Positions 11,698-30,477 of a stretch of 35,427 nt of DNA are shown one piece after another. Source of the DNA: Pseudomonadota bacterium (GTDB lineage: Bacteria; Myxococcota_A; Polyangia; Polyangiales; JAKSBK01); the NCBI GenBank assembly GCA_022361155.1, contig JAKSBK010000556.1:1-35427 (forward strand), in the 5' to 3' direction. Below the pieces are notes generated by a model, which saw only the letters and a program-made list of their open reading frames with translations, was not told the DNA's origin and did no database searches. Both the position numbers and the translations under genes were made by a program. Positions within the stretch are counted from its first letter, which is position 1, and each line of letters begins with the position of its first letter.

Positions 11698-13068
11698 TTG
11701 GCCAGCGAGCTCGTGGTGGTTGGGCTGTCTCATCACACGGCGCCGGTCGAGGTTCGTGAACGCCTCGCCGCGCCGGCGAGCGCCGAGCAACTGGGGGAAG
11801 TGGTCGAACGCGTCAGGTTGACCGAAGCGGCGCTGTTATCGACGTGCAACCGCGTCGAGCTCATCGCAGCAGCGGCCGACGTGAACGAGGCTGTCCCGCA
11901 CGTCCATGAGTACTTCGCTCGGAGATCGCCGTTCGCCGAACTCGAGCAGCACACGTACTGTTACCAGGGTCGCGACGCTGTCAGGCACCTGTTCAGGGTC
12001 GCGTCGGGACTGGACTCTATGGTGCTGGGCGAACCGCAGATCCTCGGTCAAGTCAAGGAGGCACGGCAGTGTGCTCGCAGGGCGGGCACGCTGGGTACAG
12101 TCTTGGGGCGCTGCTTCGACCACGCCTTCGCGGTGGCGAAGCGGGTGCGCGCCGAAACAGCTCTGGCAAGCGGTCACATCAGCGTGAGCTCCATCGCGAC
12201 CGAGCTTGCGGGACAGATCTTCGCCGACCTCGCGAGCAGAAAGGCGCTCTTGCTCGGGGCGGGCGAGATGGCTGAGGCGGCCGCGCGTAGTCTTGCGAAT
12301 CAGGGCGCCTCGCTGGTCGTCCTCAACCGCAGCAAAGAGCGCGCAGACCGGCTTGCACAAACGGTCCGCGGCACGGCGCGCCCTCTGTCGGAGCTGACTT
12401 CGGAGCTCCACGACGCGGACGTCGTGTTGTCGTCCACTGCGCATGCGGGCTTCGTGATCACGCACGAGCTGATGACCGAGGTCGCCCGCATTCGACGCTT
12501 TCGCCCCCTCTTTCTGATCGACATCGCCGTGCCAAGGGACATAGAACCGCGAGTCGGACTGCTGCAGAACGTCTTCCTCTACGACATCGACGATCTGAAG
12601 AGCGTATCCGAGCAAAACCTGCAAGCTCGAAAGGGCGAAGTACAGGCTGCCGAGGACATCGTCGAAGCCGAAGTACAGCGCTACGAGCTATGGCGACACT
12701 CACTCGAGCTGACGCCCACCATCGTTGCGTTGCGCGAACGGTTCCGCAGTGTGCTGTCTGCCGAGATCGAACGAACCGCGCTGAAGCTCTCGAGCCTGAA
12801 CGACACCGATCGGGAGTCGCTCTACCGCATGGCCGATACCTTGACCAAGAAGCTGCTGCATCACGCCATCACGCGACTGAAGCACAGTACCCAGCGCAAT
12901 GAAGAAGCCGCACTTATCGAAGCGGCTCGTACGCTCTTCGATCTGCCGCTGCCAGAGCATGCCTCGGGCACCCGTGCTTCAGAACGGCGCAAGGCGAGCG
13001 ATCCCGCAGAAGCCTACCACGAGACCGCTCCCATACTCAAAGCCGTTGGACGGGACGGGGAAACATGA
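11698..13068 (+). CDS. hemA: Glutamyl-tRNA reductase
   Basis: This 456-residue enzyme reduces Glu-tRNA(Glu) to glutamate-1-semialdehyde with NADPH, the first committed step of C5-route tetrapyrrole synthesis. Motifs in order: VVGLSHHTAPVEVRE at 7-21, LLSTCNRVE with the catalytic Cys at residue 50, GEPQILGQVK, the NADPH-binding LLGAGEMAEAAA, and FLIDIAVPRDIEP. Next come the long helical spine and a C-terminal dimerisation domain (LTKKLLHHAITRLKH). Start TTG 11698 (MASELVVVGLSH) is preceded by a G-run about 7 nt upstream and puts the catalytic Cys at position 50, as in the E. coli enzyme. ATG 11668 and TTG 11659 inside hemX are alternatives. A ~40-residue polar tail follows the fold. It overlaps hemC by ATGA. 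Confidence 0.96.
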   Translation: MASELVVVGLSHHTAPVEVRERLAAPASAEQLGEVVERVRLTEAALLSTCNRVELIAAAADVNEAVPHVHEYFARRSPFAELEQHTYCYQGRDAVRHLFRVASGLDSMVLGEPQILGQVKEARQCARRAGTLGTVLGRCFDHAFAVAKRVRAETALASGHISVSSIATELAGQIFADLASRKALLLGAGEMAEAAARSLANQGASLVVLNRSKERADRLAQTVRGTARPLSELTSELHDADVVLSSTAHAGFVITHELMTEVARIRRFRPLFLIDIAVPRDIEPRVGLLQNVFLYDIDDLKSVSEQNLQARKGEVQAAEDIVEAEVQRYELWRHSLELTPTIVALRERFRSVLSAEIERTALKLSSLNDTDRESLYRMADTLTKKLLHHAITRLKHSTQRNEEAALIEAARTLFDLPLPEHASGTRASERRKASDPAEAYHETAPILKAVGRDGET

Positions 13069-14042
13069 CGCTGCGCATTGCAACACGCCAGAGCGCTCTG
13101 GCGATCGCGCAGAGCCGCTGGGTCGCCCGGCAGCTTGGTAATCACCATCCGGGCATCGAGGTAGCGTTGGTGCCGATGCTGACCCGGGGCGATCGCATCA
13201 CGAGCGTCCCGCTTGCGCAGCTCGGAGGCAAGGGGCTTTTCGTAAGCGAGCTCGAGGCTGCCGTGCGTGACGGTCAGGCCGATCTGGCCGTTCACTCGCT
13301 CAAGGATGTGCCCGCCGAGCTCGCACCGGGGCTCGAAATCGCGGCCGTGCCCGAACGCGAGGATGCGCGCGACGTGCTGGTCTCCGCGCACGGATCCGAA
13401 CTCGACGACTTCGCTGCTGAAGCGCGAATCGGCACGAGCTCGGCGCGGCGTATCTGTCAGCTGCGCCGGCACAGACCCGATCTCGACTACGCCCTGCTAC
13501 GCGGCAATGTCGACACCCGCCTGCACCGGCTCGAGCAGGGTCGCTACGCTGCGATCGTGCTGGCGTACGCCGGCCTGAACAGGCTGAACCTGCACGACCG
13601 GCCGCTGTGGCCGCTGCCACCCGCCGTCTGCATCCCGGCCGTTGGCCAGGGCGCTCTGGCGCTCGAAGCCAGAAGCGACGACAAGCCCACGCTCGAGCTG
13701 CTGTCGTGCCTGGAGCACGCACCCTCGCGGCTCGCCATCACCGCAGAGCGCGCGTTTCTGAGACGTACCGGGGGCGACTGTAACGTCCCGCTCGCTGGCT
13801 ACGCCCACTTCGAGGCTGGAAGCTGCCTGCGGATGAGCGCGCTGGTCGCCTCGACCAACGGCGAGCGGTATCTGACGACGCACGGCAAGCGCGTTCTCGG
13901 TATGGAGGACGGACGCGCGCAGGCTCGCGCGCTCGGCGAACAACTGGCCGAGGAGCTGCTCGCCCAGGGCGCCCAGCAACTCATCGAGCAGGCACTTACC
14001 CTCGCTGCGCGACGCGACGACCCACGCTCCCGCCCCTCCTAG
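13065..14042 (+). CDS. hemC: Porphobilinogen deaminase (hydroxymethylbilane synthase)
   Basis: This 325-residue enzyme polymerises four porphobilinogen units into hydroxymethylbilane. Diagnostic segments are LRIATRQSALAIAQS at 3-17, LAVHSLKDVPAE with the catalytic Asp at 81, GTSSARRICQLRR, RGNVDTRLHRL, AGLNRL, PAVGQGALALE, and GGDCNVPLAGYA. Cys239 in the last is the attachment site of the dipyrromethane cofactor. The start overlaps the hemA stop (ATGA at 13065-13068), a sign of translational coupling. Length is usual. No hemD follows; immediately after the TAG stop a MITE-like element begins. Confidence 0.97.
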   Translation: MTLRIATRQSALAIAQSRWVARQLGNHHPGIEVALVPMLTRGDRITSVPLAQLGGKGLFVSELEAAVRDGQADLAVHSLKDVPAELAPGLEIAAVPEREDARDVLVSAHGSELDDFAAEARIGTSSARRICQLRRHRPDLDYALLRGNVDTRLHRLEQGRYAAIVLAYAGLNRLNLHDRPLWPLPPAVCIPAVGQGALALEARSDDKPTLELLSCLEHAPSRLAITAERAFLRRTGGDCNVPLAGYAHFEAGSCLRMSALVASTNGERYLTTHGKRVLGMEDGRAQARALGEQLAEELLAQGAQQLIEQALTLAARRDDPRSRPS

Positions 14043-14241
14043 CTAGTGTCCTGTATCCGTGATTACGTACATAAGTCGGCGAGCAATTGGCGACGCTCGG
14101 GTCATCGAATCGACGCAGACTGCGGTTCAATGTCGATGCAGTGCATCGCTATTTCCAGGAGATAGCCAAACGGCGATCGATGGCGTGAGCGGTGTCAAGG
14201 GCCGGCGAATTATGTGCGGGATTTCGGATACAGGACACTAG
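14043..14241. mobile_element. 199-bp MITE with 17-bp perfect terminal inverted repeats
   Basis: The ends are CTAGTGTCCTGTATCCG (14043-14059) and its exact reverse complement (14225-14241). The arms stay similar for another ~23 bp inward (about 15 of 23 matching, including ACATAA and TCG). TA dinucleotides at 14044-14045 and 14239-14240 could be the target duplication of an IS630/mariner-type transposase, an inference from the TA alone. There is no ORF of note inside, so it is non-autonomous. It fills the gap between convergent hemC and the EEP-family gene, and its right end supplies the latter's TAG stop. The inverted arms could also end transcription from both sides. Confidence 0.85.
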
Positions 14242-15083
14242 GGCTGGGACGCGCGCCAGGCGGGACGAGTGCCCGGCGGCCGTGGGTCGAGGCGCAGCTC
14301 GGCGTAGATGCCAAAATGATCGCTGGGCCAAACGCCAGCCTGTTCCTGGTCGCAAACGACCTGACAGCGTTCAACGTGACCGAGGCCATCGTCACGCGGC
14401 GTACCTGCGAAGATGTAGTCGATGCGGCGATCGAGCTCGAGGTTGGCCCGAGCGTACGCGTTTCGGTTCGACCAAGTATAGCCTGGGCCGCCATCTCCCG
14501 CTGCACGCCAGGCATCCACCATATAGACGCGCCGCCCTCCGAGGGAATGCAGACCGGTCAGGAAGCGGATCTCATCCGAGCCGGGTTCCGCATTCATGTC
14601 CCCAGCTATGATCGGTGGAAAGCCGGAGCGCCCCTGAAGACCGGCCACATGGTCGTACAGGGCCATGACCTGCTGCTCGCGGACGTCGCCGCGATCGTGC
14701 TCCCAGTCGAGGTGTGTCGAGGTGAAGAACAACGTACCGCAGGGTGCCTCGATTCCAACTGTGAGCGCTGCGCGTAGCTGGTAGTCCGTGCAGTCCGGTA
14801 GACGCAGCTCGTGGCGCGAACGCACGGGCCAACGACTCGCCACCGCGTTGCCAAACGCGAGTGCTGGCTCCTTCCAAAACGGGATCGCCTTCACGAAGTC
14901 AAGATGGTAGGAGCGCCCCTGCACTACCTGAGCGAGCTGGTCGAAGCCTTCGCCACGCACGACCTCCTGAAGCGCAATGAGATCCGGATCCAAGCGCTCG
15001 AGCCAGTGCCGGATCAGCGAGACCCGTGCCGGCCAGGGTCCCGCATCATGCCAGATATTGAGGGTGAGGATTTTGATAGGCAT
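14238..15083 (-). CDS. Endonuclease/exonuclease/phosphatase (EEP) family hydrolase
   Basis: The 281-residue protein is a DNase I-like metal-dependent phosphodiesterase. Signature segments are ILTLNIWHDAGPW at 4-16 with the catalytic Asn, LIALQEVV with the metal-binding Glu, FFTSTHLDWEHD, IAGDMNAEPGSDE (Asp/Asn pair), RRIDYIFAG and PSDHFGIYAEL with the final catalytic His. All the catalytic residues expected of the family appear intact. Substrate (nucleic acid, inositol phosphate, sphingomyelin or other) cannot be told from sequence, and there is no signal peptide. ATG 15083 places the catalytic strand at the N-terminus as usual; no strong ribosome-binding site is seen. The stop codon lies inside the terminal repeat of the MITE, so the last residues may differ in strains lacking the insertion. 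Confidence 0.85.
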   Translation of the reverse strand: MPIKILTLNIWHDAGPWPARVSLIRHWLERLDPDLIALQEVVRGEGFDQLAQVVQGRSYHLDFVKAIPFWKEPALAFGNAVASRWPVRSRHELRLPDCTDYQLRAALTVGIEAPCGTLFFTSTHLDWEHDRGDVREQQVMALYDHVAGLQGRSGFPPIIAGDMNAEPGSDEIRFLTGLHSLGGRRVYMVDAWRAAGDGGPGYTWSNRNAYARANLELDRRIDYIFAGTPRDDGLGHVERCQVVCDQEQAGVWPSDHFGIYAELRLDPRPPGTRPAWRASQP

Positions 15084-19898: not shown

Positions 19899-20057
19899 AA
19901 GGGCCCGCGGAAGAACAGCTCGCGCGTCAGGGCGAGGACCGGCGCCGCTGGCGAGGCGCGACGACGAGGAGTATTGGGGATACTTCGAGGAGGAGCAGCA
20001 TAGCCAGCGGTGGTCGGAACCGGCGAAATGGATGAGGTATTCTCCCGCGGGCCCTAA
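19899..20057 (+). mobile_element. Palindromic repeat element, copy A (fused to tadA 5' region)
   Basis: This is a 159-bp element bounded by AAGGGCCCGCGGAAGAACAG and an inverted end finishing CCGCGGGCCCTAA. The centre is a short hairpin AGTAT-TGGGG-ATACT (19970-19984) at the exact midpoint, and the arms are imperfect inverted copies for most of their length. Two more copies lie at 25141-25299 (minus) and 30318-30477. The tadA frame is open right through this copy (RDDEEYWGYFEEEQHSQRWS encoded), and ATG 20032 in its right end is a possible tadA start. Relative to copy C it lacks one base in the left arm. Confidence 0.9.
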
Positions 20058-25140: not shown

Positions 25141-25299
25141 AGGGCCCGCGGAAGAGTAGCTCATCCATTTCGCCGGTTCTGACCACCGCTAGCTATGTTG
25201 CTCCTCCTCGAAGCATCCCCAATACTCCTCGTCGTCGCGCCTCGCCAGCGGCGCCCAGTCCTCGCCGAAACACACGAGTTGTTCTTCCGCGGGCCCTTT
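25141..25299 (-). mobile_element. Palindromic repeat element, copy B (between Nudix gene and cyaY)
   Basis: Read on the minus strand it starts AAAGGGCCCGCGGAAGAACA and ends CCGCGGGCCCT, about 159 bp, with the same central hairpin region (GTATTGGGGATGC here) as the other copies. The peptide frame (FGEDWAPLARRDDEEYWG) is open for most of its length, but a CAG-to-TAG change interrupts it near the right end. The element separates the Nudix gene from cyaY and points toward cyaY. Confidence 0.9.
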
Positions 25300-30317: not shown

Positions 30318-30477
30318 AAGGGCCCGCGGAAGAACAACTCGGGTGTTTCGGTGAGGACTGGGCGCCGCTGGCGAGGCGCGACGACGAGGAGTATTGGGGA
30401 TACTTCGAGGAGGAGCGACATAGCCAGCGGTGGTCAGCACCGGCGAAATGGATGAGCTATTCTTCCGCGGGCCCTAA
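30318..30477 (+). mobile_element. Palindromic repeat element, copy C (upstream of the antiporter gene)
   Basis: This 160-bp copy runs from AAGGGCCCGCGGAAGAACAA to TTCCGCGGGCCCTAA, with the central AGTAT-TGGGG-ATACT hairpin. Its peptide frame is open end to end (GPAEEQLGCFGEDWAPLARR and onward to SYSSAGP). It lies in the 309-bp gap between the AgmX-like gene and the antiporter gene, 136 bp before the latter's start. The remainder of that gap holds nothing recognisable. Confidence 0.92.

Follow-up and report, generated by a model that had tools for sequence, protein, structure and literature searches.

Elements that lack a transposase and duplicate a CTAG target have been described. MITEPsy1 of Pseudomonas syringae is a 100-nt non-autonomous inverted-repeat element making a 4-nt duplication at CTAG or YTAA; it was moved experimentally and is thought to derive from ISPsy2 (PMC3189936). 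IS5 duplicates YTAR, mostly CTAG (PMC5493358). The element analyzed here, which we call the CTAG element, resembles MITEPsy1 in being a non-autonomous inverted-repeat element with a 4-nt CTAG duplication. However, MITEPsy1 has the ends GGAAGGTCTGAAAAAGCC and GTATCCTCTGAAAAAGCC, is half as long, and has a proposed autonomous parent. With IS5 (PMC5493358) and IS701 the CTAG element shares the 4-bp YTAR duplication, CTAG being found also at IS701-type copies of the host's order; unlike it, these elements encode a transposase, and such of their terminal repeats as were seen here do not match TGTCCTGTATCCG. By description, it can also be likened to YPAL and ERIC of Yersinia and enterobacteria, mobile palindromes of 127-168 bp near genes that form RNA hairpins, ERIC affecting mRNA depending on its orientation (PMC2229807). 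In contrast, ERIC is of the TA-ended type and the duplications of YPAL vary from 3 to 26 bp. CTAG-targeting MITEs are already known as a kind, and the CTAG element is a further member. Its family is apparently undescribed and patchily spread through the host's order; the open-access literature searched gave no match for CTAG MITEs in myxobacteria or for MITEs that regenerate stop codons.

The features of the locus are listed in Table 1; the window is the whole 35,427-nt stretch of DNA that was analyzed. An earlier note, made from the sequence, had described a 17-base end with its exact complement, no gene in between, and two stop codons, that of hemC to the left and that of a convergent EEP-family gene to the right. 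All of these are present, with CTAGTGTCCTGTATCCG at 14043-14059, its exact complement at 14225-14241, and no gene in the interval 14043-14241. The inverted repeat, perfect over 13 bp, reaches 35-39 nt in all, with 82% complementarity at 39 nt. The whole 199 bp forms an imperfect palindrome, as BLAST matched it to its own opposite strand over 1-199 (68%, E 5e-7). Folding of these 199 bp gave -109.9 kcal/mol, compared to -63.7 ± 4.1 for shuffled sequences (z -11.3).

Table 1. Features of the hemC/EEP locus, in window positions
Feature	Position	Strand	Remarks
hemC (porphobilinogen deaminase)	13065..14042	+	Pfam PF01379/PF03900; stop TAG 14040-14042 abuts the target duplication
CTAG element proper	14047-14237		191 bp, within the 199-bp interval 14043-14241
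Left target duplication copy, CTAG	14043..14046	.	4 bp; TTAG/CGAG direct-repeat variants elsewhere
Left terminal inverted repeat	14047..14081	+	13 bp perfect, 14047-14059 (TGTCCTGTATCCG); imperfect to 14081
Conserved core common to relatives in other families of the order	14076..14207	+	Alignments A1-A3 and order-wide right-half model search
Core hairpin GCTATTTCCAGGAGATAGC with strand-marking motif TTC(G/A/C)AGGAG	14148..14166	+	Fold; motif in aligned host-genome copies and relatives
Right terminal inverted repeat	14203..14237	-	13 bp perfect, 14225-14237
Right target duplication copy, CTAG	14238..14241	.	EEP stop 14238-14240 (minus strand) inside
EEP-family (endonuclease/exonuclease/phosphatase) gene	14238..15083	-	Pfam PF03372, residues 6-256/281; homologues in the order

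The host genome (5.4 Mb in 608 contigs, 99% complete) gave 58 BLAST matches to the CTAG element and 66 exact TAGTGTCCTG ends, compared to 3 for a reversed-pattern control, so that a chance origin of the repeat is ruled out. At least 23 copies are complete and lie on different contigs (22 from the BLAST rows plus L147), and there are many one-ended fragments besides. Since the nearest copies are 98-99% identical to that of the window, the family must have moved recently. The CTAG element is a MITE by its defining features: it is gene-free, dispersed, and carries inverted repeats and a target duplication. The earlier note's proposal of a gene-free, MITE-like inverted-repeat element is thus borne out as dispersed and multi-copy; its counter-case, a single-copy conserved terminator, does not hold with this number of copies. 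At the end of one contig (C93), the left flank of a partial copy (L034) recurs in inverted form behind that copy; this may be a fold-back produced in assembly.

A second inverted-repeat family, with AGGGCCCGCGGAAGA ends, has three copies in the window (19900-20055, 25141-25297 and 30319-30475). Its ends differ from those of the CTAG element, which agrees with the first reading of the two as unrelated. In L014 (C360) a AGGGCCCGCGGAAGA end immediately adjoins a copy of the CTAG element, and in L158 (C580) one lies within ~15 bp of such a copy.

We have good confidence in the following account. The CTAG element would be a non-autonomous, 191-bp MITE-like palindrome moved in trans by a YTAR-duplicating transposase, with the stop codons of neighboring genes kept and the RNA fold kept in founder copies. 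The transposase, which we infer to be a DDE enzyme of the IS701 or IS5 type, would cut YTAR, in most cases CTAG, with a stagger of 4 bp. An insertion into the stop codon of a gene would leave a complete stop on either side, and with it an unchanged product. As for the window, insertion most likely took place at the CTAG with which the EEP gene terminates, immediately next to the stop of hemC. The empty site would then have read hemC-TAG CTAG-(EEP reversed), the two genes lying tail to tail with zero gap. Insertion would have moved these convergent genes 195 bp apart by way of a strong hairpin, leaving both stops and both proteins unaltered. In founder copies the RNA fold of one strand would have been maintained, whereas inserted copies decayed freely, as the wobble pairs described below suggest.

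Searching 184 genomes of the order with a 99-position sequence model of the right half, we obtained matches in 14. Those in four genomes (G042, G076, G088 and G097) lie in seemingly ordinary gene sequence with no palindrome and are likely due to chance; for this reason we count, besides the host, nine relatives with related palindromes (G002, G023, G034, G038, G039, G040, G053, G108 and G117), nearly always with CTAG ends. Six of them (G002, G023, G034, G039, G040 and G053) keep the core GAATC(G/A)A(C/G)G ... TTCRAGGAG and have GGCGAG-type motifs in the arms on either side of it; small substitutions in the TTC(G/A/C)AGGAG motif occur in some aligned copies and relatives. The ends, in contrast, are TGTCCTGTATCCG in the host, TCACCTGTGTCGG in G034, TGGTGCTCGGCGG in G040 and TCACCCGGAACAG in G002, G023 and G039, and G023 has one core with two kinds of ends. 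The arms diverge strongly between genomes yet co-vary, while the core is conserved. The ends have evolved faster than the core, which is unusual for a MITE and counts against the account above, being the reverse of what one fixed transposase would lead us to expect. G034 has dozens of ends plus internally deleted forms of 52-83 bp. Those at L162-L166 (52, 73 and 83 bp) make nearly perfect hairpins whose CTAG ends are intact; the one of 83 bp occurs at three sites. In G040 (L245 and L261), two different palindromes abut with apparently one CTAG between them, as if the duplication of one had been the next target.

Palindromes bounded by the 17-mer (CTAGTGTCCTGYATCCG) also occur outside the order, namely in Afipia, a Vicinamibacterales MAG and a Chloroflexi MAG; IMG/VR gave 0 matches to this 17-mer. 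These palindromes have the CTAGTGTCCTGTATCCG end in common with the CTAG element, and in a 97-bp Vicinamibacterales element the arm match continues further inward. They differ from it in their length (75-190 bp) and in having other cores, and in Afipia a second CTAG-bounded palindrome follows the first. In Afipia and relatives (L093-L106) these successive palindromes, one of 75 bp and then CTAGTGATCC...GGATCACTAG, are separated by a short A+T-rich spacer, and each has a conserved one-sided bulge near its end.

The conserved core raises a reading of the family that we hold possible, though well short of likely: a structured-RNA element, in which either mobility or the host depends on a strand-specific RNA core, while the co-varying arms do no more than close the stem. 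Such a core would be two hairpins joined by UUCRAGGAG within a long stem and is compatible with DNA transposition. Consistent with it, the TTCRAGGAG strand folds better as RNA in all 46 copies compared, from seven families, by 3.8 to 42 kcal/mol; the copies share ancestry, however, so they do not count as 46 tests. Two-sided changes in paired columns of the host-genome alignment number 39 cells, compared to 13.5 in shuffles, but arm covariation is also expected if a transposase recognizes both ends. The core is conserved among the order's families, unlike the arms, and in G023 it stands under two different ends; both observations speak for the RNA as well. G-U outnumbers A-C by 19:3 among pair types found in more than one copy, and the ratio is 12:11 among single-copy types. 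On the other hand, under strand-neutral pairing the G-U excess is marked in the host genome (9.0 versus 2.5 per copy) and weak in G034 (2.9 versus 2.3), and the pairing was predicted with RNA energies, which favor G-U. The region 13900-14400 gave 0 Rfam matches at E<=1, and we saw no sigma-70-like promoter in the element, both of which argue against a structured RNA. We take the RNA asymmetry as suggestive; the wobble pattern fits selection on the RNA of founders together with free decay of inserted copies.

Most copies have CTAG as their outer four bases on either side, and because CTAG is its own reverse complement it seems to be part of the inverted repeat. Some copies, however, carry direct repeats in the element's orientation: TTAG..TTAG in L004 and L009, and CGAG..CGAG in L015. 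Since an inverted repeat would give TTAG..CTAA, the direct TTAG..TTAG identifies the outer 4 bp as duplicated target, and the terminal repeat therefore starts at TGTCC with a perfect part of 13 bp (TGTCCTGTATCCG). We thus read the 17-bp "perfect ends" as a 4-bp target duplication (CTAG) plus the 13-bp inverted repeat TGTCCTGTATCCG. The duplications found, CTAG and TTAG/CTAA, are those of the IS701/IS5 type, and by sequence comparison a 4-bp YTAR duplication fits the copies where a 2-bp TA duplication does not.

The earlier note had seen TA at both ends and proposed an IS630/mariner type. In that case TA would be the duplicated target of a MITE derived from an IS630/Tc1-mariner element, and the inverted repeat would be GTGTCCTG.... 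TA is indeed present at both ends in most copies, and the genome has two IS630-type (DDE_3) genes. However, the TTAG..TTAG copies would need mismatched terminal bases, TA is missing from CGAG..CGAG, both variants make sense as a 4-bp direct repeat, and the DDE_3 genes are not framed by an inverted pair of TGTCCTG ends. We therefore set aside an IS630/Tc1-mariner-derived MITE as improbable, the TA being part of the 4-bp CTAG (YTAR) duplication.

We looked for an autonomous partner of the CTAG palindrome among the transposase families DDE_3, DDE_Tnp_1, DDE_5, rve and Y1, in an assembly of 608 contigs. None of the DDE_3 (2 genes), DDE_Tnp_1 (4), DDE_5 (1 plus relatives) and rve (4) genes of the host genome is framed by TGTCCTGTATCCG-type ends, and no pair of opposed ends spaced at 1-3 kb was found in the host genome or G034. 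The host genome likewise gave no full-length element bearing such ends, a point against the account above. The IS630, DDE_Tnp_1, IS701 and rve transposases of the host genome were rejected as parents on account of their other ends. IS701-type elements with CTAG duplications do occur in the host genome (C60), G013 and G027. The ends of the host's own are (T/G)CTCG(A/G)GTTTGGCGG, and those of the others CACTACTTTGACA and (C/T)AC(C/T)ACTGTGTC. We did not encounter terminal repeats common to the CTAG element and IS701/IS5 elements, and hence do not file it under either.

A Y1 (HUH) transposase that works on single-stranded hairpins, as with REP/RAYT-type palindromes, might also come to mind for a palindromic, intergenic repeat that sometimes stands beside other palindromes, Y1 genes being widespread in the order, where 35 of 57 genomes have them. 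This is very improbable here, as the host genome, at 99% completeness, gave 0 Y1_Tnp matches, and the 4-bp target duplication and symmetrical ends differ from the one-sided tag of REPs (PMC3733652).

CTAG contains TAG on both strands. Using a simple codon-usage gene caller trained on 691 kb of the host genome, and rebuilding empty sites by joining the flanks, we found that a called gene ends inside the duplication in 13 of the 28 scorable copies. L009, where a short frame ends in TAA in the duplication, was nevertheless scored genic and is outside the 13. Among CTAG sites outside genes, 92/282 (~1/3) are gene stops; the enrichment beyond this availability is not significant (p = 0.09), and we therefore do not claim targeting of stop codons as such. 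CTAG cutting, together with the loss of insertions inside genes, explains the pattern with no special targeting. Four genes checked have normal C-termini at the duplication stop: SucD (TIGR01019 286/286), UDP-glucose dehydrogenase (residue 441/444), a FadB-like protein (752/752) and a DUF1585 protein (74/74). A stop in the duplication is older than the insertion, provided that the duplication copies the target faithfully. Where the two duplications differ and one gene end was scored (L014, L018, L019 and L026), the intact YTAR copy carries the stop, as expected if selection acts on that copy only.

TAG is the commonest stop in the 691 kb of host genome (213/459 called genes, L181-L220), and CTAG the commonest base-plus-stop, perhaps unusual for a GC-rich genome. 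Ten of the 13 stop-adjoining elements (L001, L005, L007, L012-L014, L018, L019, L024, L026, L065, L067 and L071) are oriented with the less stable strand in the gene's mRNA (two-sided p ~0.09).

At the window locus, insertion had been thought to provide the EEP stop or to alter the C-terminus of its product. We find instead that the TAG stop sits inside the right target duplication, and every EEP codon preceding it is host DNA. As it lies in duplicated target, the stop is most simply older than the insertion, and would not have been supplied by the CTAG element. Compared to 15 relatives, the EEP protein has 11-16 additional residues in its C-terminal tail, which is not element-encoded. The gene may therefore have changed at an earlier time, or lost a short stretch next to the insert; such an adjoining deletion may have put the EEP gene in frame with CTAG. 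The earlier note's alternative, in which a terminator between the two genes was replaced by the insertion, may or may not apply. No hemC was found near an EEP homologue within the retrieved flanks (~1.5 kb) of the relatives' loci. That this is an ordinary conserved bidirectional terminator, as a strong hairpin between convergent genes could suggest, is hardly credible, since at least 23 dispersed copies have target duplications and no canonical terminator (hairpin plus T-run) is predicted in the element, which may have been co-opted as a terminator, but not have originated as one.

For a mobile palindrome, a 4-bp target that holds a stop on both strands, and is restored by its own duplication, would keep the cost of spreading low even in compact, gene-dense DNA. 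We also put forward, tentatively and as rather unlikely on present evidence, that these are order-wide mobile palindromes in which a strand-specific RNA core is conserved and transposition ends are exchanged between lineages. If true, these palindromes would live as parasites: by changing their ends they could make use of one CTAG-cutting transposase or another, and by landing on TAG stops they would spare the host. The family has many copies in a number of genomes. Its core, ends and strand-specific fold can therefore be traced one by one, which allows testing whether bacterial MITEs are selected as RNA.
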